From: Amycolatopsis solani
GTDB lineage: Bacteria > Actinomycetota > Actinomycetes > Mycobacteriales > Pseudonocardiaceae
Direction of reading: 5' to 3'
Length of the DNA: 64,000 bases
Assembly (NCBI RefSeq): GCF_033441515.1
Contig: NZ_JAWQJT010000003.1
Location: forward strand, 434,001 to 498,000
Shown: positions 10,889-22,525 of the stretch, piece by piece
Position numbering within the stretch: the first letter of the stretch is position 1
Layout of the letters: every line of letters starts with the position of its first letter
Made by a program: the position numbers and the translations under genes
Notes under the pieces: model-generated
Seen by the model: the letters and a program-made list of their open reading frames with translations, nothing else
What the model was told of the DNA's origin: nothing
Database searches by the model: none

Positions 10889-10960
10889 ACCGCGGGCGAC
10901 CGGGCGGGTACCTCCGCTGCCTACGGTCGGCCGACATCCCCGTTGCCGCAGGAGGACCCG

Positions 10961-13075
10961 TTGCGTGTACTCGACCTCACCGACGAACTGGCCCGGCAGG
11001 GCGCCCGGCTGCTGGTCGGGCTCGGCGCCGACGTCGTGCGCGTCGACGACGACCTGACCGGGCCCGAGCGCATCCACTGGCACGCCGGGAAGAAGCTGGC
11101 GGCGGATCTCGACGCGCTGGCCCGGGAAGCCGACGTCATCCTGGAAAGCGGGCCGGTGGCGAAGCTGCGTGGCCTGCACGCCGACGGGACCTCGCGGTGG
11201 CCGGACGCCGTCCACGTCGTCGTGACGCCGTTCGGCCTCACCGGCCCGCGCCGCGACTGGCTCGGCGGCGACCTCGTGCTCGCCTCCGCCGGGGGGATGA
11301 CCTGGCTCGGCGGCAAGCCCGGCGGCCCGCCCGAACCGCCGCCGCGCGAGCAGGCCTGCCAGCTGGCCGGCGCGCACGGCGCGATCGCCGCCCTGCTGGG
11401 CGTGCTCGCCGGGACCGGGCAGCTGATCGACGTCTCGGCCCAGGAAGCGGTCGCCGCGACGCTGGAAACGGGCGCGATCTCGTGGATCCACGCCGGCCGG
11501 TTCCCGGTCCGCAACGGCGGCGTCTACGAGCACGTCGCCCATCGGATCTTCGCGGCCGCCGACGGGTACGTCGCGGGCGGCTACTCCGGCAGCGAGCGCA
11601 TGTGGACCGGCCTTCGGGACTGGCTGGCTGAGGAAGGAGAGGCCGGTGACCTCCTGGACGAGCGGTTCGCCGATCAGGTGGTGCGGTGGGCCGAGCGTCC
11701 GCACGTCGACGACGTCGTCGCCCGGTTCGTCGCCAAGCGCACCGCGGCCGAGGTCGCCGAGGAGGGCCGCGCCCGTTCTCTGCCGTGGGCCGAGGTGACT
11801 CCGCCGGCGGAGCTGACCCGCAACCCGCAGCTGCGCGACCGGCAGTTCTTCGTCTCCGTCGACGGCATCGAGGACGCCGGCTTCCCCTGGAACGCCCCCG
11901 GCCTGCCCCGGCCGGTGACGCTGTCCCCGCTCACCGAAGGCGGGTGGACCAGCGCGCCGGTGCAACGGCGACCCGCGCGGAGCCGCGCGCTCGACGGCGT
12001 CCGGGTGCTGGACCTGACCTGGGTGCTGGCCGGGCCCTACGCGACCAAGATCCTCGCCGAGCACGGCGCCGACGTCGTCAAGGTCGAGTCGAAGCACCGA
12101 CACGACCCGACGCGGTTTTCGACGTCCATGCGGCTGCGGCCGGACGCCGGGCCCGACGACTCCGGCTACTTCCTGAACTTCAACCGTGGCAAGCGAAGCG
12201 TCGCGCTCAACCTGCGCACGCCCGAAGGGCAGGCGGTCCTGCGGGAACTGGCCGCCCACTGCGACGTCGTCGTGGAGAACTTCAGCCCGGGCGTGCTGGC
12301 GAAGTGGGGCTTGGACTACGAGTCGCTGCGCGCGATCAACCCGAAAGCGATCCTGGTGTCGATGTCCGGCGTCGGGCACACCGGGCCGTGGCGGAAGGCC
12401 GTCACCTTCGCCGACACGCTCGCCGCGATGTCCGGGCTGTCCGCCGAGACGGCCGAACCGGGCGAAAAGCCACAAGGGCTGGCTTTCGGGCTGGGGGACA
12501 TGGTGGCCGCCAACGCGGCGGTGCTCGGCGCCCTGGACCTGCTGATCCGCGGCGAAGGCGGGCACGTCGACCTCTCGCAGCTGGAGGCGATGGCGGCCAC
12601 GATGGGCCCGGCGGTCCTCGGCACCGCGCGTTCCGCGCCGCACGGCGTCTACCCGGCGGCCGGGGACGACCGGTGGGTGGCCATCGCCCCGCAAGACGAA
12701 ACGCAGTGGGCCGCGCTGCGGGCCTTGGCTTCGGACGAGATCGACACCCTCGCTGCCTGGACCCGGCCGCAGGACGCCGAGGACCTCACCGCCCGGCTGC
12801 AGGCCGCCGGGGTCCCCGCGGCCGTCGTGGCGACCGGTCGCGACCTCGTCCAGGACGAGCACTTGGCCGAACGCGGCTTCTACGAGCGCCTCGACCACCC
12901 GATCGCGGGCGCGGTGCTGCACGAGGGCATCGTCGCGCGCCTCGCGGCGACCCCGGGCGCGCTCACCTCGCCCGCTCCCCTGCTCGGCCAGCACACCGAC
13001 CCGGTCCTGCGCGAGCTCCTGGGCTTCGACGACGACCGCCTGGCCGCCCTGCGCGCCGCCGGGATCACCGAATGA
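10961..13075 (+). CDS. Two-domain CaiB/BaiF (family III) CoA transferase
   Basis: 704 residues, about twice the usual 380-430, made of two tandem CaiB/BaiF units (about 1-330 and 345-700). The second is more canonical, beginning GVRVLDLTWVLAGPYATKIL with NFNRGKRSVALNLRTPEG. Each half keeps the conserved Asp region (QLIDVSAQEA in the first, HVDLSQLEAM in the second). Family III enzymes move CoA between carboxylates through aspartyl-CoA intermediates. A TTG start at 10961 is chosen because GGAGG lies five bases upstream. It sits between the ligase and the hydratase in one operon. The fusion may mimic the homodimer of single-domain relatives. Confidence 0.88.
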   Translation: MRVLDLTDELARQGARLLVGLGADVVRVDDDLTGPERIHWHAGKKLAADLDALAREADVILESGPVAKLRGLHADGTSRWPDAVHVVVTPFGLTGPRRDWLGGDLVLASAGGMTWLGGKPGGPPEPPPREQACQLAGAHGAIAALLGVLAGTGQLIDVSAQEAVAATLETGAISWIHAGRFPVRNGGVYEHVAHRIFAAADGYVAGGYSGSERMWTGLRDWLAEEGEAGDLLDERFADQVVRWAERPHVDDVVARFVAKRTAAEVAEEGRARSLPWAEVTPPAELTRNPQLRDRQFFVSVDGIEDAGFPWNAPGLPRPVTLSPLTEGGWTSAPVQRRPARSRALDGVRVLDLTWVLAGPYATKILAEHGADVVKVESKHRHDPTRFSTSMRLRPDAGPDDSGYFLNFNRGKRSVALNLRTPEGQAVLRELAAHCDVVVENFSPGVLAKWGLDYESLRAINPKAILVSMSGVGHTGPWRKAVTFADTLAAMSGLSAETAEPGEKPQGLAFGLGDMVAANAAVLGALDLLIRGEGGHVDLSQLEAMAATMGPAVLGTARSAPHGVYPAAGDDRWVAIAPQDETQWAALRALASDEIDTLAAWTRPQDAEDLTARLQAAGVPAAVVATGRDLVQDEHLAERGFYERLDHPIAGAVLHEGIVARLAATPGALTSPAPLLGQHTDPVLRELLGFDDDRLAALRAAGITE

Positions 13076-13086
13076 AAGGAACCCGC

Positions 13087-13854
13087 ATGCCGGTCCTGAC
13101 CACCACCCGGGACGCCGGGGTAGCGACGATCCGGATCGACCGGCCGCCGGCCAACGCCGTCGATCCGGCCATGATCGCGGAGTTCCGCGAGGTGCTGCCG
13201 CCGCTGGCCGAAGACCCGGACGTGCGGTGCCTGGTCATCACCGGCACCGGCAAGTTCTTCATCGCCGGCGCCGACATCGCCGTCATGCGGGACCTGTCCG
13301 ACGTCAACCAGGCGAAGATGCGCGGCTGGATCGAGGTGCAGCGGATCCTGGAACGGGCCCCGAAACCGGTGATCGCCGCCATGAACGGCCACGCCCTCGG
13401 CGGTGGCGCCGAGCTGGCCTTGGCCTGCGACCTGCGGATCCTCTCGGCCACGGCGAGCTTCGGCTACCCGGAGATCACCCTCGGCCTGTTCCCCGGGGCG
13501 GGCGGCAGCCAGCGGCTCCCCCGGCTCGTCGGACCGCACCGGGCCAAGCGGCTGATGATCGAGGGCACGCGCCTGTCCGCCCAGCAGGCCCTGGAGTTCG
13601 GCTTGGTGGATCGGGTGGTCGAGCCCGGGCTGTTCGACGCCGCGGTCGCCGAGGAGGCCCAGCTGCTCGCGGCCAAGCCGACCGCGGCCATCGGCATCCT
13701 CAAACGGGTCGTCGACGAAGGTCACGGCCTGCCGATCGAGGAAGCCTTGCTACGCGAAGGGAAAGGCGTCGCGGAGCTGATCCGCACCGCGGACGCCGCC
13801 GAGGGCCTGCAAGCCTTCCTGGACAAGCGCCCGCCCCGGTTCATCGGCCACTGA
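13087..13854 (+). CDS. Enoyl-CoA hydratase/isomerase (crotonase family)
   Basis: 255 residues. Oxyanion-hole segments FIAGADIAVM (near 63) and GHALGGGAELALACD (near 105) are present, and both acid-base Glu positions of true hydratases are retained (GGGAEL and YPEITLGLFPGAGGSQ). It hydrates a trans-2-enoyl-CoA to a 3-hydroxyacyl-CoA. AAAGGA lies upstream of ATG 13087; an alternative ATG at 13072 overlaps the previous stop. It is the last gene of the ligase-transferase-hydratase operon, followed 3 bp after its stop by a palindromic element. Confidence 0.92.
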   Translation: MPVLTTTRDAGVATIRIDRPPANAVDPAMIAEFREVLPPLAEDPDVRCLVITGTGKFFIAGADIAVMRDLSDVNQAKMRGWIEVQRILERAPKPVIAAMNGHALGGGAELALACDLRILSATASFGYPEITLGLFPGAGGSQRLPRLVGPHRAKRLMIEGTRLSAQQALEFGLVDRVVEPGLFDAAVAEEAQLLAAKPTAAIGILKRVVDEGHGLPIEEALLREGKGVAELIRTADAAEGLQAFLDKRPPRFIGH

Positions 13855-13856
13855 GA

Positions 13857-13904
13857 GGTCGGGAGTGTTTAGGACGGTTAGAACCGTCCTAAACACTCAC
13901 GACC
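13857..13904. repeat. Palindromic GTGAGTGTT element, copy 2 (between convergent genes)
   Basis: Arms 13857-13879 and 13882-13904 pair at 22 of 23 positions (mismatch 13862/13899) around an AG loop. It lies exactly between the stops of the convergent hydratase and ferredoxin genes, the position expected of a bidirectional terminator. Confidence 0.85.
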
Positions 13905-13907
13905 GGG

Positions 13908-14243
13908 TCAGTACTGGGCGACCATCGGGGTGTCCACGCCGAGGTCGCCGATCGTGCCGGCGCCGCCGGGGTCGCCGAGGGGCGCGTCGCGGCCGGGCAG
14001 GGGCTGCTCGAAGAAGGCGATCGAGTCCGTCACGAACACCGTCTTGCTCTCGTCGCCACGCGCTTTGCGGTCGACGAAGATGGCGTCCACCGGGCACTCC
14101 GGCTCGCACGCGCCGCATTCGATGCACTCGTTGGTGTTGATGTAGCTCTTGCGCTCGCCGACGTAGATGCAGTCGACAGGGCAGACGTCCAGGCAGGCGC
14201 GGTCGGTGACGTCGATGCAGTTGGCGCCGATGACGTAGGCCAT
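13908..14243 (-). CDS. fdxA: 7Fe ferredoxin ([3Fe-4S][4Fe-4S], FdxA type)
   Basis: 111 residues. The cysteine pattern of seven-iron ferredoxins is clear: CIDVTDRACLDVCPVDC near residues 9-25 and CIECGACEPECP near 39-50. Actinobacterial proteins of this type pass electrons to oxygenases, including P450s. It lies just downstream of a ferredoxin reductase and next to a Rieske oxygenase, so it probably forms part of that electron chain, although Rieske systems more often use [2Fe-2S] ferredoxins. The start follows AGGAAAA. Confidence 0.93.
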   Translation of the reverse strand: MAYVIGANCIDVTDRACLDVCPVDCIYVGERKSYINTNECIECGACEPECPVDAIFVDRKARGDESKTVFVTDSIAFFEQPLPGRDAPLGDPGGAGTIGDLGVDTPMVAQY

Positions 14244-14260
14244 GGGTTTTCCTTCCGGGG

Positions 14261-15238
14261 TCAGGAGTTCTCGGTCGAGTGACCGGGGAAGAGGGACAGT
14301 TCGGGGTCGAGGGCGACCGCGGCGTTGTTCACCGCCGTGGCGACTTCGCCGAAGCCGACGGACATCAGGCGCACCTTGCCCTCGTACTCGGTCACGTCCC
14401 CGGCGGCGTAGACGCGGTCGAGGCTGGTGCGCATCCGCGAGTCGACCAGGATCGACCGGCCGCGCAGCTCCATCCCCCAGGACGCCAGGGGGCCGAGGTT
14501 GCTCACGAAGCCCAGCGCGGCGATTACACTGTCCACTTCGAACACCTGCGGCTGGTCTTCGCCCCGCACGCGGACGTGAGCCAGCCGCAGCGTCTCTTCT
14601 CCGGTAAGCGCTTCCACTTCGGCGTCGGTGACGATCCGCGTTCCCCCGGCGGTGACGGCCGTGACGCTCGCCGCGTGCGCGCGGAACGCCGACCGCCGGT
14701 GGACGAGGGTGACGGACTTCGCGATCGGCTCCAAGGCCAGGGCCCAATCGACCGCGCTGTCGCCGCCACCCACGACGAGCACGTTGTGGCCGATGTGCGC
14801 GTCGAGGTCGGTGACGAAGTAGCTCAGGCCCCGGCCGAGGTAGTCCTCCCCGGCGGGCAACTTGCGCGGGGTGAACGTGCCGATCCCGGCCGTGAGGATC
14901 ACCGCGCCGGCGCGCACGACCACGCCGTCGGACAGGGTGACCTCGGGCCGGCCGTCCTCGGCGCGGCCCAGCGCGACGGCTTGGCGGCCCAGCAAGTACT
15001 CAGGGCTGTGGCCATGAGCCTGGTCCAGCAGCGCGGCCACGAAGTCGCGGCCCCGCACGCGCGGCAACCCGGCGACGTCGAGGATTTCCTTTTCCGGGTA
15101 GAGCGCGGCGATCTGCCCGCCCGGCTGGGGCAGCCCGTCGACCACGACGGTGCGCAGGCCGCGGAAGCCCGCGCAGTAGGCGCCGTAGAGGCCGGTCGGT
15201 CCGGCGCCGACCAGCAGGATGTCGGTGTCGAGGGCCAT
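14261..15238 (-). CDS. Ferredoxin-NADP(+) reductase, thioredoxin-reductase-like type
   Basis: 325 residues. FAD-binding LLVGAGPTGLYGAYCAGFRG is at the N-terminus, NADPH-binding VLVVGGGDSAVDWALAL near 155, and the second FAD motif RVYAAGDVTEYEGKVRLMSVGFGE near 285. The CxxC redox pair of thioredoxin reductases is absent, which points to the TrxR-like ferredoxin reductases. It would pass electrons from NADPH to the 7Fe ferredoxin 17 bp downstream and on to the Rieske oxygenase, whose gene is divergent. GGAGG precedes ATG 15238. Confidence 0.92.
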   Translation of the reverse strand: MALDTDILLVGAGPTGLYGAYCAGFRGLRTVVVDGLPQPGGQIAALYPEKEILDVAGLPRVRGRDFVAALLDQAHGHSPEYLLGRQAVALGRAEDGRPEVTLSDGVVVRAGAVILTAGIGTFTPRKLPAGEDYLGRGLSYFVTDLDAHIGHNVLVVGGGDSAVDWALALEPIAKSVTLVHRRSAFRAHAASVTAVTAGGTRIVTDAEVEALTGEETLRLAHVRVRGEDQPQVFEVDSVIAALGFVSNLGPLASWGMELRGRSILVDSRMRTSLDRVYAAGDVTEYEGKVRLMSVGFGEVATAVNNAAVALDPELSLFPGHSTENS

Positions 15239-15437: not shown

Positions 15438-16661
15438 ATGAGCGTGCAGAACGGCGAGACGGCCACCACCCCGGCCCGGCGCGGCCGGCGCCCGGCGAGG
15501 CTCCCGGGCCGGCAGGACTGGTCGAGCTGGCCGCACTACCAGGCCGCGGCGGCCGGGTTCCGCGGCTACTGGTACCCGGTGGGCTACTCGTCGCGGTTCA
15601 CCGGCAAGCCCCGGCAGATCACCCTGCTCGGGCAGAAGATCGTGCTGATCCGCGACGGCGGAAAGGTGTACGCGCTGAAGGACCGCTGCCCGCACCGCGG
15701 CGTCCCGCTGTCGGAGGGCAACCAGCAGTTCCCGGGCACGATCTCGTGCCCGTACCACGGCTGGACGTTCGACCTGAAGTCCGGTGACCTCAAGGCCGCC
15801 ATCACCGACGGCCCGGCCTCGCCGATCTGCGGCAAGGTCAAGCAGCCCACCTACGCGGTCGAGGAGCGCCTCGGCATGGTGTGGGTCTTCGTCGGCGACG
15901 GCGAAGAAGCCCCGCCGATCGACGAGCAACTGCCCGAGGAACTGGTCAGCAACGAGGCCATCGTCGGCTCGCGCATCCAGCCCCGCGAAGGCAACTGGCG
16001 CTTCGCGTGCGAGAACGGCTACGACGAAGGCCACGCGAAATACCTGCACCGCACGGCGTTGTGGCGGCTGTTCAAGGCGATGCCGGTGTGGAACGAGACC
16101 CGGATCATCGAGCGCGGGCGGTGGATCTACCGCGTCCAGGACAAGCAGTACTGGACCGCCGACTTCCCCGGCCTGGGCAAGTGGGACAACCAGGCGTGGT
16201 TCAAGCTGAAGCCGCCGAAGAAGGTCGGCAACGTCGGCAACACCAGCACCCACCGCCAGACCAACCCGGTGATCGCCGCGCAGGAGTTCCCCGGCTTCGC
16301 GTCGGTGAGCATGCCCGGCGTGCTGCGGATCGTCTACCCGACGTTCATCCACTACGAGTTCTACGTCCCGGTCGACGCGGACAACCACCTCTACGTCGGT
16401 GTGCTGGCGAGCTTCCAGCGCGGGCTGAAGGCGCTGCCGTTCTACGCCAAGTACCTCGGCTTCGTCCGGTGGCTGTTCCACGGCCAGTTCTCCGGGCAGG
16501 ACAAGTGGATGGTCGAAGTCACCGACGCCCCGCCGGAGAAGCTGTACCGGCCCGACGACTCGCTGCTCAAGTGGCGCAAGCTCGCCGAAGACACCTGCGA
16601 GGAACGCGTCGACCGGCTGGGCGCGCAGGGCGTCTCCGTTCCCGTCCCGGCCGCCGACTGA
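15438..16661 (+). CDS. Rieske non-heme iron oxygenase, alpha subunit (CarAa-like)
   Basis: 407 residues. The Rieske [2Fe-2S] motif is intact (CPHRG near 86, CPYHG near 107), and the mononuclear iron site is in ENGYDEGHAKYLHR near 192. The overall layout, including PGVLRI...HYEFYVPVDADNHLY, recalls carbazole 1,9a-dioxygenase and 2-oxoquinoline 8-monooxygenase alpha subunits, which are homo-oligomeric and need no beta subunit; none is encoded here. It probably hydroxylates an aromatic or heteroaromatic ring, fed by the adjacent ferredoxin and reductase. The stop overlaps the next ATG (TGATG). The substrate assignment is inference. Confidence 0.88.
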   Translation: MSVQNGETATTPARRGRRPARLPGRQDWSSWPHYQAAAAGFRGYWYPVGYSSRFTGKPRQITLLGQKIVLIRDGGKVYALKDRCPHRGVPLSEGNQQFPGTISCPYHGWTFDLKSGDLKAAITDGPASPICGKVKQPTYAVEERLGMVWVFVGDGEEAPPIDEQLPEELVSNEAIVGSRIQPREGNWRFACENGYDEGHAKYLHRTALWRLFKAMPVWNETRIIERGRWIYRVQDKQYWTADFPGLGKWDNQAWFKLKPPKKVGNVGNTSTHRQTNPVIAAQEFPGFASVSMPGVLRIVYPTFIHYEFYVPVDADNHLYVGVLASFQRGLKALPFYAKYLGFVRWLFHGQFSGQDKWMVEVTDAPPEKLYRPDDSLLKWRKLAEDTCEERVDRLGAQGVSVPVPAAD

Positions 16662-17593
16662 TGGCGCGCGTGGTGCTCGGCGTCGGGGCGTCCCACTCGA
16701 CGTTGATGAACACCCACTGGGACAAGGTCGTGCACACCGACCGCGCGGAACGCTTCCGCGACGCACTGCGCGAAGCCCGGAACGAGATCGCCGCGGCGGA
16801 ACCCGATATCGCGATCATCGTCGGCTCCAACCACTTCCGCGGGTTCTGGCTGGACATGATCCCGCCGTTCACCCTCGGCGTCGGCGAGGTGATCGGCTCG
16901 GGCGAGGCGAAGACGCCGTCGGGGCCGCAGAAAACCGCACCGGAGTTCGCCCAGCGGCTCGCCGAAGACCTCGTCGAACGCGGCACTGAAGTGGCCATCT
17001 CGGCACGCCTGCAGATCGACCACGGTCAAACGCACGCGATCCAGTACCTCCTCGACGACCTCGCCGTGCCGGTGGTTCCGTTGGTGGTCAACGTCTTCGC
17101 GGCCCCGCTGCCGCGCACCGACCGCTGCGCCAAGCTGGGCCGCAACATCGCTGCAGCCATCGCGGCCCTGCCCGAGGACCTGCGGGTGGTCGTCATCGCG
17201 TCCGGCGGCCTGTCGCACCAGCTGCCCTGGCCCGACGACTGGCGCGCGCCCGAAGGCGAGGACGAGGAGTTCCTCGTCGAGGCGTGGCTCAACGGCCGCG
17301 GCGACTGGGAAAGCTACGACGGCCGCCGTCGCGAGATCATCACCGCGGCCCGTCCGGTGCTGTTCCCCGAATTCGACGAGGCCTTCTTGGCCGACCTCGA
17401 ACGCGGCGAACTCGAGAAGTACACGTCCCTGACGACCGAGGAGATCGGGAAGGCGGCCGGCAACGGCGGCCAAGAACTGCGCACCTGGCTCGTCATGGCC
17501 GCCGCGCTGGGCTTCGAGCCGGGCCGCGCGCTGGCCTACTCCCCCATGCCCGAATGGCTGACCGGGATGGGCGTCGCGGTGATCCGGCCGTGA
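16661..17593 (+). CDS. Class III extradiol ring-cleavage dioxygenase (MhpB/LigB type)
   Basis: 310 residues, aligning throughout with MhpB, 2,3-dihydroxyphenylpropionate 1,2-dioxygenase. Metal and acid-base His regions are visible in GVGASHSTLMN near residue 11, IIVGSNHFRGFW near 50, QIDHGQTHAIQYLL near 110 and IASGGLSHQLPWP near 175. It cleaves a catechol-type ring next to the hydroxyls with Fe(II) and O2. Its start is fused to the stop of the Rieske gene, matching a hydroxylation then cleavage sequence, and its stop overlaps the next gene (GTGA). Confidence 0.92.
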   Translation: MARVVLGVGASHSTLMNTHWDKVVHTDRAERFRDALREARNEIAAAEPDIAIIVGSNHFRGFWLDMIPPFTLGVGEVIGSGEAKTPSGPQKTAPEFAQRLAEDLVERGTEVAISARLQIDHGQTHAIQYLLDDLAVPVVPLVVNVFAAPLPRTDRCAKLGRNIAAAIAALPEDLRVVVIASGGLSHQLPWPDDWRAPEGEDEEFLVEAWLNGRGDWESYDGRRREIITAARPVLFPEFDEAFLADLERGELEKYTSLTTEEIGKAAGNGGQELRTWLVMAAALGFEPGRALAYSPMPEWLTGMGVAVIRP

Positions 17594-18843
17594 CAGCCCT
17601 CGACGCGGTCCTCGCGTGGATCACCGAAGACCGGCTCCGCCAAGCAGCGCACGCGGTGACAGCGATCCCGAGCCCGACCGGCCGCGAAGCACCCCTCGCC
17701 CGGATGCTGGCTTCGCGGTTGTCGGCGGCCGGGTTCGGCGCACAGGCCCAGCACCTCGACGAGTTCCAGGCCAACGCCGTCGGCCGCCTGCGTGGTTCCG
17801 GCGGCGGCCAAGATCTGATGCTCTACGCGCCGATCGACACCCTCACCACCGGACAGTCCGAATTGGACACTCCGTGGATCGGCCCGGAGCTGCGTCCGGA
17901 CATGCGACCCGAACCCCGCGACGAAGGTCCGTTCGTCACCGGCCTCGGAGCGAGCAACCCGAAGGGACACGCGGCTTGCATCCTCGTGCTCGCCGAGGCC
18001 TTGGGTGCGGTCCGGCCGGAGCTGGCCGGTGACGTCGTCGTGGCGTTCGGCGCGGGCGGGATGCCGACCAACGCCATCGAAGCGCCCGGCTACCCCGCGC
18101 GGGCCAACACCGGGCAAGGCGCCGGCTGCTCGTTCCTGCTCGAACGCGGCTGGCACACGGACTACGCGGTGATCGCGAAGCCCGGGGACTTCGTCGCCCA
18201 CGACGAAGTCGGGCTGTGCTGGTTCGAGATCACCGTGCCCGGCATCCACACCTACGTCGGCAGCCGCCACCGGCTGCCCTACCGCAACCCGATCGTCACC
18301 GCCGCCGAAGTCGTGACGCGCCTGGAACGCTGGCTCGCCGACTACCCCGCCCGCCACCGCACGGCCACCGCGGCTCCGCAGGGCATCATCGGATCGATCG
18401 CCGGGGGCTGGGAACGGATGCTCGCGGTCACCCCGGCGGCCTGCCGGATCCGCGTGGACGTGCGGATCGCCCCGGGCGCGACACCGTTGTCCGTCAAGCG
18501 GGAACTGGCCGCGTTCCTGGAGCAGTTCGACGTGGAACTGGAGATGGTCCTGGCCATCCCGGGCACGTCCACCCCGCTCGACTCGCCGATCGTGCACACC
18601 GCGATCGACGCCTGGGAAAGCACTTCCGGCCGACTCCACGAACCCGTGCCGGACAACAGCGGGGCCACGGACGCGAACATCCTGCGCGCCCGCGGCATCC
18701 CGACCGTCCGGACCGGCATGCCGAAAGCGACCTCCGCAGACTTCAGCCGCGGCATGAACACCGTCGACGTCCGCGCGATGCGCCGCCTGTGCGAGGTGCT
18801 CGCGCGGACCACCCTCGCCACCACCGGGAAGGAAGCAGCATGA
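17590..18843 (+). CDS. M20-family (dipeptidase/deacylase) fold protein with degenerate metal site
   Basis: 417 residues following the M20 outline: catalytic domain, an inserted dimerisation domain near 210-330, then the catalytic domain again. The expected ligands are largely gone: HxD reads PID in LYAPIDTLTTG; the bridging Asp is Asn in GASNPKGHAA; the EE pair is replaced in FGAGGMPTN; the next Glu is Lys in VIAKPGD; and the late His is missing in SADFSRGMN. The dimer-domain His survives (GIHTYVGSRH). It is probably not a classical zinc amidohydrolase. Overlaps of 4 bp on both sides place it firmly in the ring-cleavage operon. Confidence 0.82.
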   Translation: MTALDAVLAWITEDRLRQAAHAVTAIPSPTGREAPLARMLASRLSAAGFGAQAQHLDEFQANAVGRLRGSGGGQDLMLYAPIDTLTTGQSELDTPWIGPELRPDMRPEPRDEGPFVTGLGASNPKGHAACILVLAEALGAVRPELAGDVVVAFGAGGMPTNAIEAPGYPARANTGQGAGCSFLLERGWHTDYAVIAKPGDFVAHDEVGLCWFEITVPGIHTYVGSRHRLPYRNPIVTAAEVVTRLERWLADYPARHRTATAAPQGIIGSIAGGWERMLAVTPAACRIRVDVRIAPGATPLSVKRELAAFLEQFDVELEMVLAIPGTSTPLDSPIVHTAIDAWESTSGRLHEPVPDNSGATDANILRARGIPTVRTGMPKATSADFSRGMNTVDVRAMRRLCEVLARTTLATTGKEAA

Positions 18844-19706
18844 CCCCACCCCCCGAGAGCCACTACGCCGACGGCGGCGGCGTCACCTACCACTACCACG
18901 ACCTCGGTTCGGGCCCGGACACCGTGTTCCTGCACGGTGGTGGCCCCGGCTGCACCGCGTGGAGCGACTTCGGGCCGGTGGCGCCGCTGTTCGCCGAAGA
19001 CCGGCGGTGCCTGCTCGTCGACATCCAGCAGTACGGCCGCTCGGCGAAGACGACCATCACCGGGCCGATGTGGGACCACCACGCGGCCAAGACCGTCGCC
19101 CTCCTGGACACGTTGGGCGTCGAGCGCGCCGACTTCGTCTGCAACTCCTGGGGCGGCACCATCGCCCTCAACCTCGCCGCGAAGTACCCGGACCGGGTGC
19201 GCTCCCTGGTCGTCACCGGCAGCATGCCGGTCTTCTACGGGCCACTGGCCCCGCTGCCCGAGGGTGGCCGCCGCGGTCGCAACGCCCGCGACGTCTATTA
19301 CGGAGGCGAAGGCCCGACGCGCGAGAAGCTGCGCCACCTGATCACCAGCCTCGAGTGGTACGACGGCGACCAGCTCCCCGAAGAGACACTCGACCTGCGG
19401 TACGAGCAAAGTCTCGACCCAGGCGAGCGCGAGCTGGCCGCCATGTCGGACTCCCCGCGCGGCGAGTGGCAGGACCTGACGGACGAGCTGGGCCGCATCC
19501 AGGCGCCCACGCTGTTCGTCTGGGGCATGCAGGACGCGTTCCTCACGCCCGACTACCCGCTGATGCTGGCGCGCATGATCCCGAACGGCAACCTGCACGT
19601 CATGGACCACGTTTCCCACCACCCGCAGGAAGAACGCCCGCACGCCTACCACGCGGTGGTCGACGGGTTCTTCCGTTCCCTGGTCCCGCAAGGAGTTCCG
19701 GCATGA
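18840..19706 (+). CDS. Alpha/beta hydrolase, meta-cleavage-product hydrolase type (MhpC-like)
   Basis: 288 residues. The oxyanion motif HGGGPGCTAWSDF near 30, Ser nucleophile in VCNSWGGTIALN near 100, acid in FVWGMQDAFLTPD near 225 and His in DHVSHHPQEERP near 257 match C-C bond hydrolases such as MhpC and BphD, which split the ring-opened product into an acid and 2-hydroxypentadienoate. The latter would feed the hydratase operon at 2277. ATGA overlaps join it to the M20-like gene before and the microprotein after. Confidence 0.92.
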   Translation: MTPPPESHYADGGGVTYHYHDLGSGPDTVFLHGGGPGCTAWSDFGPVAPLFAEDRRCLLVDIQQYGRSAKTTITGPMWDHHAAKTVALLDTLGVERADFVCNSWGGTIALNLAAKYPDRVRSLVVTGSMPVFYGPLAPLPEGGRRGRNARDVYYGGEGPTREKLRHLITSLEWYDGDQLPEETLDLRYEQSLDPGERELAAMSDSPRGEWQDLTDELGRIQAPTLFVWGMQDAFLTPDYPLMLARMIPNGNLHVMDHVSHHPQEERPHAYHAVVDGFFRSLVPQGVPA

Positions 19707-19816
19707 AGGTCCTGCTCGCCCTGACCGCCGCGGCCGCGACGCTGGCCGCCCTGCGCAAGCTCGCCGCCTACAGCAACACCCAAGTCCACCGCATCAACAC
19801 CAAGGAGCTCGCGTGA
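19703..19816 (+). CDS. 37-residue microprotein stitched between two hydrolase genes
   Basis: This ORF runs from ATG 19703 (overlapping the previous stop, ATGA) to TGA 19814-19816 (overlapping the next start, GTGA). It lies in a different reading frame from both neighbours. Of its 37 sense codons 36 end in G or C, as in the real genes nearby. The peptide has a hydrophobic Ala/Leu-rich N-terminal half (MKVLLALTAAAATLAAL), long enough for one short membrane helix, then a basic polar tail (YSNTQVHRINTKELA). It resembles no family I recognise. It could anchor a pathway enzyme at the membrane, act as a subunit, or serve mainly for translational coupling. Confidence 0.7.
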   Translation: MKVLLALTAAAATLAALRKLAAYSNTQVHRINTKELA

Positions 19817-20667
19817 GCATCTGGACCGAACTCTCTCCCCTCGCGCACCGCGTGGAGTACGTCGACGCCGGCGGCGTCCCCACCCGGACGCTGCGGGCCG
19901 GGAACCCGGACGCCGAGGCCGTCGTGTTCCTGCACGGCACCAGCGGGCACCTCGAGGCGTTCGCGCGCAACATCGTGGCGCACAGCGAGTTCGACCTGCA
20001 CGCCATCGACATGCTCGGCCACGGCTACACCGGCAAGCCCGCCCGGCCGTACGAGATCGCCGACTACGTCCAGCACCTCCTGGACTACTTCGACGCCGCC
20101 GGGATCCGCGCCGCGCACATCGTCGGCGAGTCCCTCGGTGGCTGGGTCGGGGCCCGCGCCGCGATCGAGCACCCGGAGCGGGTGCTGAGCCTGCAGCTGC
20201 TGTGCGCCGGCGGCACCGTGGCCAACCCCGAGGTCATGAACCGCATCCGCACCAGCACGAAGGACGCCGTCGCCACCGACGACGTCGAGCTCACCCGCAA
20301 ACGCTTGCGGCTGCTCATGGCGAGCGAGGAAGACGCCACCGAAGAACTGGTCGAGGTCCGGCACGCGATCTACCACACGCCGGAGTTCGTGGCCAATGTG
20401 GACAACCTGCTCTCCCTGCAGTCCATGGAACGGCGGCAGCGCAACCTGTTGCGCCCCGAGCAGCTCGCCCGCATCACGCAGCCGACGCTGATCGTGTGGG
20501 GCCGCAAGAACCCGTTCGGCGAAGTGCCGGAGGCCACGAAGATGCACGAGGACATCCCTGGTTCGCAGCTGGAGCTGTTCGAGGACTGCGGGCACTGGCC
20601 GCAGCACGAGCAGGCCGCCCGCTACAACCCCTTGAGCGTCGAGTTCATCCGCAAGGCCGCCGCGTGA
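19813..20667 (+). CDS. Second alpha/beta hydrolase of the ring-cleavage operon
   Basis: 284 residues. VVFLHGTSGHLEAF near 37, the nucleophile elbow IVGESLGGWVGARAA near 103, acid region LIVWGRKNPFGEVPE near 233 and His in EDCGHWPQHEQ near 262 give a complete triad. It resembles meta-cleavage-product hydrolases and ester hydrolases. Two hydrolases in one operon suggest either two substrates or an additional ester or lactone step. The GTG start overlaps the microprotein stop, and its own stop overlaps the dehydrogenase start. Confidence 0.88.
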   Translation: MSIWTELSPLAHRVEYVDAGGVPTRTLRAGNPDAEAVVFLHGTSGHLEAFARNIVAHSEFDLHAIDMLGHGYTGKPARPYEIADYVQHLLDYFDAAGIRAAHIVGESLGGWVGARAAIEHPERVLSLQLLCAGGTVANPEVMNRIRTSTKDAVATDDVELTRKRLRLLMASEEDATEELVEVRHAIYHTPEFVANVDNLLSLQSMERRQRNLLRPEQLARITQPTLIVWGRKNPFGEVPEATKMHEDIPGSQLELFEDCGHWPQHEQAARYNPLSVEFIRKAAA

Positions 20668-21617
20668 GGGCCGCGCGGTTCCACACGTGGGGCTCGGCCC
20701 CGGTCGTCGACGAGGTCCCCGAGCCGGCGCGGGCCGAAGGTGAGGTGCTGGTCGACGTCCAGGCGGCGGCGGTGGCCCACCTGGACGCCACCGTCGCCAG
20801 CGGCACGTTCAACCTCAAGCCGCCCTTGCCGTACGCCGGTGGCGTGGAAGGCGCGGGAGTCGTCGTCGAGTCCGATGTGGACTCCGGTCTCGCACCGGGT
20901 GATCAGGTGATGTTGCGCGGGGCCGGGCTGGGCCTGCTGCGTGACGGGACCTGGACCGAGCGGCTGAGCGTGCCGGCCAAGGCCGCGAACAAACTGGACG
21001 CCCCGCTGCCGCCCGAGGTCGCGGCGACGTTCTACGTGCCGGCGACGACCGCGTTCGTGGTCCTGCACGACGTGGCCCGGCTCGCCGAGGACGAGCAGGT
21101 GATCGTCGTCGGCGCGGCCGGTGCAGTCGGTTCCATGGTCGCCCAGCAGGCCGTGCTCGCCGGGGCGAAGGTCACCGGGATCGTCGGCCGCGCGGACCAG
21201 CTCGGCCACGTGCCCGACGGCGTCACCGGCATCTGCCTCGACTCCACTGAGGACATCGAGCGGCTCGCCGCGGACCGGCCCGCCTCCCTGCTGGTCGACA
21301 CGCTCGGCGGCGACGGGCTGGTGGCCCGGACCCGCTGGGTGCGGCCGGGCGGGCGCGCGGCGGTGATCGGGTACGTGACCGGCACCGAAGTGCGCGTCGA
21401 CCTGCCGTCGTGGCTCCTCGACGACGTCGCGCTGCTGCCGGTCAACATGATCCGGCAGGAGCGCCGGGCCCGCGAGATCTCCGGTGACCTCGTCAAGAAG
21501 CTGTCCGCGGGCGAGCTTTCCCTGGCCGTGCAGAAGTACGCCTTCGCCGACGCGGCGCTCGCGCTGGAGGACCTGCGGGCCGGGCGGGTCCGCGGCCGCG
21601 CAGTGCTGGTCCCGTAA
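20664..21617 (+). CDS. MDR-superfamily oxidoreductase (quinone-oxidoreductase/zinc-less type)
   Basis: 317 residues. The GroES-like N-terminal half contains PLPYAGGVEGAGVVVE near 57, and the Rossmann NADP site is VIVVGAAGAVGSMVAQQA near 145-165. Structural and catalytic zinc cysteines are absent, as in NAD(P)H:quinone or enone reductases. It may reduce an unsaturated intermediate. It is the last gene of the operon starting at 15438, linked by a GTGA overlap, and is followed 4 bp later by the third GTGAGTGTT palindrome. Confidence 0.88.
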   Translation: MRAARFHTWGSAPVVDEVPEPARAEGEVLVDVQAAAVAHLDATVASGTFNLKPPLPYAGGVEGAGVVVESDVDSGLAPGDQVMLRGAGLGLLRDGTWTERLSVPAKAANKLDAPLPPEVAATFYVPATTAFVVLHDVARLAEDEQVIVVGAAGAVGSMVAQQAVLAGAKVTGIVGRADQLGHVPDGVTGICLDSTEDIERLAADRPASLLVDTLGGDGLVARTRWVRPGGRAAVIGYVTGTEVRVDLPSWLLDDVALLPVNMIRQERRAREISGDLVKKLSAGELSLAVQKYAFADAALALEDLRAGRVRGRAVLVP

Positions 21618-21754: not shown

Positions 21755-22525
21755 ATGGAAGCGAACAGCGTCCTCGGCAAGGTCCAGCTCATCCTGGAGG
21801 CCTTCGGGCCCGACGACGAGCACCTCAGCCTCACCGAGCTGGCCCGCCGCTCCGGCGTCGCCAAGGCGTCGGTGCACCGCCTGGCGCAGGAGCTGCTGAC
21901 CTGGGGTGTGCTGGAGCGGCGCGGCAGCGACTACTGGCTCGGCATCCGCCTGTTCGAAATCGGCCAGCGGGTGCCGCGCCAGCGCATCCTGCGCGACGCC
22001 GCCCGGCCGTACATGGAGGACCTCTACCAGGCCACGAACGAGACGATCCACCTCGCCGTCCCCGACGGCCGCGAAGTCCTCTACCTCGAGAAGGTGTCCG
22101 GCCACAGCCAGGTGACCAAGCCGTCCCGGGTGGCCGGCCGGATGCCGATGTACTGCACCGCCACCGGCAAGGTGCTGCTGGCCTTCGGGCCTCGCGCGCT
22201 GGTCGACGAGGTGATCGCGTCGCCGCTCGACCGGCTCACCCCGCACACGGTCCACGCTCCCGGCCTCCTACTCAACGAACTCGCGCGGGCCCGCGCGAAC
22301 GGCTACGCGGTCGAATACGAACAGACGCGCGTCGGTTTCGTCAGCGTCGCGATTCCGCTGACCGGCGCGACCGGCCTGACGACCGGGGCGCTGTCCATCA
22401 CCGCGCCGCTGTACCGGGCCGACGTCGGCAAGTACGCCGGGCTGCTGACGATGGTGGGCCACCGGATCACGAAGACGGTCAGTGCCCTGCGGTCCGGTGA
22501 TCGGACCACGCCGGTTACCCGGTGA
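21755..22525 (+). CDS. IclR-family regulator downstream of the Rieske/extradiol operon
   Basis: 256 residues. The winged helix (LTELARRSGVAKASVHRLAQ, near 25-45) precedes the effector domain (SRVAGRMPMYCTATGKVLLA near 125 and GFVSVAIPLTGATG near 195). It is close to the IclR protein at 8374 in its opening NSVLGK and helix-turn-helix. The inverted half-sites immediately before its start and the same 19-bp string before the Rieske operon make it the best candidate regulator of that operon. The ribosome binding site is weak. Confidence 0.9.
   Translation: MEANSVLGKVQLILEAFGPDDEHLSLTELARRSGVAKASVHRLAQELLTWGVLERRGSDYWLGIRLFEIGQRVPRQRILRDAARPYMEDLYQATNETIHLAVPDGREVLYLEKVSGHSQVTKPSRVAGRMPMYCTATGKVLLAFGPRALVDEVIASPLDRLTPHTVHAPGLLLNELARARANGYAVEYEQTRVGFVSVAIPLTGATGLTTGALSITAPLYRADVGKYAGLLTMVGHRITKTVSALRSGDRTTPVTR

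Follow-up and report, generated by a model that had tools for sequence, protein, structure and literature searches.

The 37-codon open reading frame (ORF) wedged between two alpha/beta hydrolase genes of Amycolatopsis solani raises two questions: whether it is a gene and, if so, what its product does in the surrounding ring-cleavage operon. The ORF, hereafter MP (37 codons plus TGA; positions 19703–19816 of the 64,000-nucleotide stretch analyzed here, which we call the window), was delimited from the sequence and from its homologues and is translated as MKVLLALTAAAATLAALRKLAAYSNTQVHRINTKELA followed by the stop. Its ATG at 19703 shares ATGA with the stop TGA (19704–19706) of the first hydrolase gene, ABH1 (18840–19706), and the GTG start at 19813 of the second, ABH2 (19813–20667), shares GTGA with the stop TGA of MP (19814–19816); the three genes lie on the plus strand in three different reading frames. 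Two AAGGAG stretches read from the sequence are the likely ribosome sites of MP (19690–19695, within the 3' end of ABH1 and 7 bases from the ATG) and of ABH2 (19802–19807, coded by residues T-K-E of MP and 5 bases from the GTG). The GC content of MP by codon position (24/37, 17/37, and 36/37, i.e., 0.65/0.46/0.97) resembles those of ABH1 (0.71/0.47/0.92) and ABH2 (0.70/0.43/0.96), and such a profile is absent from the other two frames of the same stretch. The start, the stop, both overlaps, the third frame, and the 36 codons ending in G or C had been given in an earlier note on this DNA, exactly in every case.

Upstream on the plus strand lie the genes of a Rieske oxygenase (15438–16661), whose nearest solved relatives are the terminal oxygenases of carbazole 1,9a-dioxygenase, of a LigB-type class III extradiol dioxygenase (16661–17593; assigned by family and structure matches), and of an M20 metallohydrolase (17590–18843), nearest among solved structures to 5-nitroanthranilic acid aminohydrolase. 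LigB comes closest to 3-carboxyethylcatechol 2,3-dioxygenases among family models and to a 2,3-dihydroxyphenylpropionate-type dioxygenase in the PDB. For both hydrolases the best NCBIfam match is HsaD, under its cut-off of 400 bits (155.6 bits for ABH1 and 119.1 bits for ABH2). Downstream on the same strand, family matches identify a zinc-binding-dehydrogenase-type oxidoreductase (ADH; 20664–21617) and an IclR-type regulator (21755–22525). Judging from the resemblances of Rieske, LigB, and M20, the pathway looks like one of meta-cleavage, acting on an aromatic compound that contains nitrogen or is polycyclic; kynurenic acid as a pathway substrate found no mention in the open-licence literature searched. 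A ferredoxin (4Fe-4S type) and a pyridine nucleotide-disulphide oxidoreductase, possibly the electron donors, are encoded on the minus strand (13911–15238) divergently from the Rieske gene. Further upstream, positions 10943–13072 encode a protein of 710 residues in which two stretches belong to CoA-transferase family III (tandem CaiB-like). An enoyl-CoA hydratase is encoded next, and one or both of the two lie near the operon in several relatives. Rfam had nothing at gathering score within 19400–20200.

Could MP be a chance ORF in a GC-rich gap? On both strands of the window, 90 ORFs of 30–50 codons start with ATGA or GTGA, 31 of which carry one of these at the end as well, compared with means of 100.5 and 46.2, respectively, in 20 Markov-3 simulations. 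The double overlap patterns are thus ordinary by themselves, and the openness of the frame is no evidence for a gene either, since it is open for 285 codons (18959–19816). Both facts would suit a chance origin. The earlier note had argued that a chance ORF would rarely unite the two overlaps with such third codon positions; once a third-position GC of at least 0.95 is added, MP is the sole double-overlap ORF in the window (0.1 per simulated window). What decides the matter is homology. Among the 8000 candidates of a protein database that shared most words with MP, 405 proteins matched at E ≤ 0.01 (the best 120 of these 405 being unnamed, "hypothetical" or "uncharacterized"), and MP is conserved across genera and co-occurs with the operon in whole genomes, as detailed below. 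With tail residues kept amid synonymous change as well, the comparison of sequences makes it nearly certain that 19703–19816 is a real, conserved protein-coding gene tied to the Rieske/extradiol operon, and leaves next to no room for a chance ORF. The microprotein gene of a ring-cleavage operon proposed in the earlier note is therefore borne out by conservation, more firmly than the sequence of one genome could have done.

In the searches of the family and of the class, the number of candidates scored in each genome was limited, with weak misses being possible; within that scope, a Rieske protein at least 69% identical to that of the window (E ≤ 1e-185) was found in 25 of the 390 genomes of the family, and MP was present in all of the 25. 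MP lies between ABH1 and ABH2 in 19 of them (type A) and between Rieske and M20 in six (type B). At looser thresholds, 27 of the 390 genomes matched MP (E ≤ 0.01) and 35 matched Rieske (≤ 1e-120). The MP matches in G114 and G287 (E of 0.004–0.005) have no operon gene nearby and look like chance; the remaining 10 of the 35 Rieske genomes (56–60% identity), together with a second copy in G137, constitute type C, to which we return below. In the class sample of 394 genomes, four Rieske matches at ≤ 1e-185 coincided exactly with four MP matches at ≤ 1.2e-5, and a fifth Rieske match (G489) was of type C. Eight other MP matches in this sample (E of 0.002–0.01) were without operon genes in the surrounding 1.5 kb and were set aside. 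No Rieske match at 1e-60 was found in the plasmid collection.

Within the genus, the ABH1 protein matched 8 of 80 genomes at 1e-60. MP follows ABH1 in five of the eight (G000, G062, G080, G089, and G028); in G012 and G064, ABH1 is elsewhere and MP follows Rieske. The operon of G008 has decayed to a remnant, and no MP was seen there. The MP of G028 has lost both overlaps and kept SNTQVHRIN. A genus search with the query A1 matched 11 of 80 genomes, through seven operon copies and four weak matches (0.027–0.050). In the G008 remnant (L014), an ABH1 fragment is directly joined to the end of ABH2, near what we read as a putative recombinase gene and a tRNA-like stretch. In G089 (L013, L015, and L017), M20 and ABH1 match the window in pieces and in different frames, owing to decay or to assembly indels, with MP and ABH2 intact.

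Among 445 pattern matches in a scan of named genomes, 14 loci were confirmed, belonging to Amycolatopsis, Paractinoplanes, Pseudonocardia, Actinomycetospora, a Rhodococcus MAG, Nonomuraea, and Rhizohabitans; some of them share their MP with loci from the genome searches and are probably the same strains. Rieske, LigB, M20, ABH1, and ABH2 were all present in 14 of the 14, a figure conditional on MP as the loci were found through it, and ADH was unmatched in four (L055, L056, L057, and L059). MP also serves as a marker for a catabolic operon that has received little description and that occurs here in several genera of actinobacteria. Weak MP matches at L022–L025, L044, L045, and L094–L101, with no window operon protein matched within about 1.5 kb, were rejected; the weak matches L003–L006 were inspected in translation only.

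The position of MP varies with the operon. Type B has the order Rieske-MP-M20-LigB, and in the three loci fetched far enough downstream (L056, L113, and L115) ABH2 comes next and ABH1 is on the other strand. In G678, the two hydrolase genes ABH1 and ABH2 are neighbors without MP in between, and MP is placed between Rieske and M20. In G733, no such ORF was found ahead of M20, which is separate from the rest, and MP is still between ABH1 and ABH2. Rhizohabitans L059 has two MPs, one between ABH1 and ABH2 and a second before a displaced M20. Overlaps were measured against the reading frames of the neighbors in 24 loci of type A, 8 of type B, and 12 of type C (the ABH2 start being ambiguous in L030). 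The MP start overlaps the preceding gene by 4 bases in 29 of 43 cases (19/24, 4/7, and 6/12 for types A, B, and C), and the MP stop overlaps the gene that follows, likewise by 4 bases, in 30 of 44 (11/24, 7/8, and 12/12). MP is kept where one or both overlaps are missing, e.g., in L010, L058, and L059. Coupling is a frequent, not a universal, habit with whichever enzyme gene flanks MP, and the peptide outlasts it. Hence, of the earlier picture of a gene locked in by its overlaps, the commonness of the overlaps remains but the lock does not, because MP persists without them and its neighbors differ between operon types. The same position between two hydrolase genes, which the earlier note suggested looking for, recurs in type A but not in type B. 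G678 is literally what the note had named as evidence against a gene, namely flanking genes still coupled with the ORF gone, but MP is found elsewhere in the same cluster.

The frequent overlaps, and the ABH2 ribosome site inside MP in the window, would also suit a translational coupler or spacer with an inert peptide. We regard this as very improbable: it is largely contradicted by the tail residues conserved amid synonymous change, and MP occurs without overlaps and at other positions, with ABH1 and ABH2 lying side by side in G678 without it. The ribosome site may nevertheless account for one detail, as many relatives end in RIN or RINQ plus one residue instead of the TKE that follows RIN in the window; the need for T-K-E as the ABH2 ribosome site may explain the extra residues in the window and close relatives.

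Selection acts very differently on the two halves of MP. The tail motif S-N-T-Q-V-H-R-I-N (residues 24–32; 19772–19798) was delimited from the alignment of the relatives and the codon comparison, and its T, Q, and V are invariant in all of the 36 type A and B sequences, in which they are written with 3, 2, and 3 codons, respectively. The pN/pS ratios, which are uncorrected pairwise values computed without a tree, were 0.11 for TQVHRI (19 distinct sequences) and 0.25 for SNTQVHRI (22 distinct). An 11-residue segment of the helix gave 0.94 (34 distinct), implying that only hydrophobicity is kept in the helix. Within the six Amycolatopsis MPs, the pooled ratio was 0.56 and randomisation gave P of 0.008 to 1.0 in five pairs, a comparison of little power. 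The low dN/dS anticipated in the earlier note thus holds for the tail across genera and fails for the helix; in Amycolatopsis alone the signal of purifying selection is weak, which speaks against low dN/dS as a simple account of MP within the genus.

The hydrophobic stretch of the window peptide (residues 3–17; 19709–19753) is a predicted helix, according to the translation and AlphaFold2. Over the 36 sequences, the uncharged core averages 15.1 residues (11–22) with a mean Kyte-Doolittle value of 2.4 (lowest core mean, 1.9), and the net charge after the core is higher than that before it in 34 and equal in two, in line with the hydrophobic N-terminal stretch and more basic end described earlier. 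This charge distribution hints at a cytoplasmic C-terminus. AlphaFold2 draws a helix over residues 2–36, with block pLDDT values of 95 and 94 over residues 1–20 and of 71 and 60 in the tail; the latter fit a tail that settles only upon a partner.

A helix followed by a short conserved tail is also the layout of an exported or signaling peptide precursor, in which the helix would be the signal sequence and the tail the active peptide, and one relative (L032) weakly matches a signaling-peptide model (18.5 bits versus a cut-off of 44). Nevertheless, the tail is nearly identical across distant genera, the more basic end after the helix argues against its export, and M20 is nearest, among solved structures, to an aminohydrolase acting on small aromatics instead of to a processing protease; a precursor is accordingly quite improbable. 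An uptake helper, by which a substrate or product would cross or partition into the membrane, would match a hydrophobic helix with a basic tail in an operon for aromatic substrates. However, MP offers a single short helix, and the part conserved is the polar tail rather than the helix, making this role improbable as well, if slightly less so than a precursor.

We propose instead that MP is a membrane-bound single-helix adaptor, the tail of which docks on soluble enzymes of the pathway, and give this reading, based on sequence and predicted structure, a probability of about one half. The N-terminal hydrophobic helix would insert into the cytoplasmic membrane with the C-terminus probably in the cytoplasm, and the basic tail [R]SNTQVHRIN would bind one or more soluble pathway enzymes and hold them at the membrane, for instance where a hydrophobic aromatic substrate enters. 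Through the start and stop overlaps with the flanking enzyme genes, MP would be made alongside the enzymes. A role as a membrane anchor or as a regulator, for both of which the earlier note had offered parallels, is plausible. That the tail is polar and conserved, next to a hydrophobic helix free to vary in sequence, suggests a docking peptide carried on a membrane helix, and the adaptor is further supported by the co-occurrence with the operon (25 of 25 in the family and 4 of 4 in the class sample), the persistence of MP at different positions, and the common coupling. An uncharged stretch of 11 to 22 residues is on the short side for crossing the whole membrane, and the helix may instead be monotopic or amphipathic. 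Against the adaptor stand the AlphaFold2 model, which continues one helix through the tail at low confidence, the inconstancy of every single neighboring gene, the weak purifying selection among the Amycolatopsis sequences, the separate M20 in G733 and L059, and the two MPs in L059. If the adaptor is real, Rieske/extradiol pathways would be organized at the membrane, their reconstitution in other hosts without MP may underperform, and the nine-residue tail would be a testable docking motif. We know of no catabolic pathway of the soluble Rieske/extradiol kind that has a single-helix microprotein as a constant component.

Small single-helix proteins are known parts of membrane enzymes, and MP may be an activating, stabilising or assembly subunit of one enzyme in the manner of CydX, its helix packed on that enzyme. 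Co-occurrence and the conserved tail fit such a subunit equally well, and the helix is short, as would suit it. On the other hand, a helix that keeps hydrophobicity and not sequence fits contact with lipid better than a specific protein interface, and the enzymes of this operon belong to families of soluble proteins, unlike the enzyme served by CydX. A subunit of this kind is therefore rather unlikely, though the likeliest of the alternatives. CydX, the small subunit of the Escherichia coli cytochrome bd oxidase, has 37 amino acids, one hydrophobic helix, and few highly conserved residues, and is encoded in the operon of its enzyme, other classes of cydAB operons carrying CydY and CydZ (PMC4325964, PMC6005532); its partner is an integral membrane oxidase (PMC4899803). 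The resemblance to MP, with 37 residues, one hydrophobic helix, few conserved residues, and a place in an enzyme operon, is plain, and the Pfam and NCBIfam scans of MP returned no CydX family. Another parallel is Prli42, a small, hydrophobic miniprotein of the Listeria stressosome that is reported to have a role in placing the soluble RsbR1 at the membrane, with a wild-type-like stress resistance in its absence (PMC9840623). MP is small and hydrophobic like Prli42, which acts in a signaling complex while MP belongs to a catabolic operon. By analogy, MP would work most like CydX or the tether Prli42, a likeness of kind rather than evidence of membership.

The earlier statement that no named protein of such pathways is known to resemble MP stands, in that MP and its relatives matched no Pfam or NCBIfam family above the curated cut-off. 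The window peptide had no Pfam match, and 29 members gave three single weak Pfam matches, none to a small-subunit family. Neither a description of MP nor the string SNTQVHRIN was found in the open-licence literature searched. Five of the 29 members weakly match, with their N-terminal part, the DLW-39 family protein (NCBIfam NF038356), which by its model name is likewise a small actinobacterial protein and found no mention in the same literature; the best match, of one relative over residues 3–27 of 38, scored 23.8 bits against a cut-off of 24. We rejected membership since none reaches the cut-off, the window peptide is unmatched, and the matches extend no farther than the beginning of the conserved tail. 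The LigA/CarBa-type small subunit of class III extradiol dioxygenases is a small, operon-encoded partner of LigB-type enzymes, but neither the window peptide nor the 29 members matched such a family, and MP is smaller and hydrophobic. In the PDB, designed Pizza propeller chains matched with E down to 8.3e-6, over nine residues and with no stretch passing alone; we judged this to be chance.

Twelve operons (L106–L110, L112, L116, L117, and L124–L127) constitute type C, with a Rieske protein of about 55–59% and an ABH1-like hydrolase of 37.5–46.5% identity, plus M20, LigB, and ABH2. A hydrophobic micro-ORF of 33–46 residues lies directly before M20 in all of the 12, its stop overlapping the in-frame M20 start. 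As a control, 39 of 4000 random 300-base windows, drawn from the 12 fetched loci L106–L117 of both operon types, held a hydrophobic ORF of 34–50 codons ending with ATGA or GTGA, the minimum of 34 codons being one that would exclude the L124 ORF (33). The type C tails read GR[RG]TTVRTV in 9 of 12, RSATRVRTV in L124, NGTVVRDV in L109, and RATTVLVV in L110, and the pattern T-x-V-[HR]-x-[IV] is common to types A, B, and C except for L110. A profile-profile comparison (hhalign) of the micro-ORF and MP gave no significant match (12.5% probability over 5 columns). Common descent of the two is a conjecture from the shared cluster position and tail pattern only.

Between-class comparisons point, weakly, to a partner for the proposed adaptor. 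From best HSPs only, at 15 A, 4 B, and 11 C loci (L114, of class B, having an A-like ABH1-ABH2 pair), the mean identities (%) for A-B, A-C, and B-C were 77, 41, and 41 for ABH1, 67, 58, and 61.5 for Rieske, 62, 55, and 55 for LigB, 71, 61, and 60 for ABH2, and 55, 55, and 58.5 for M20. The steepest drop in identity, that of ABH1, coincides with the change of tail, and M20 shows no such parallel; this pattern, being a single evolutionary split, favors ABH1 slightly. On our reading, the likeliest partner would be ABH1, the C-C hydrolase, or else the Rieske oxygenase, with M20 less likely. A bolder version, which we hold tentatively and would not bet on, is that an unnamed adaptor family assembles ring-cleavage enzymes into a membrane metabolon with the nine-residue tail as a docking code, the adaptor of type C and its client ABH1 having changed together.

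Three minor observations concern individual loci. In L020 (G064), the Rieske frame extends 250 bases beyond the MP start (16 in the relative G012, L021), either a larger overlap or a disturbed frame. In L059, a 660-codon ORF on the minus strand (L059:9849–11831), upstream of the second MP and M20, matched no operon protein of the window. Near the type C operon of L108, positions 12222–13993 hold a second, more distant pair of LigB (38%) and ABH2 (42%).
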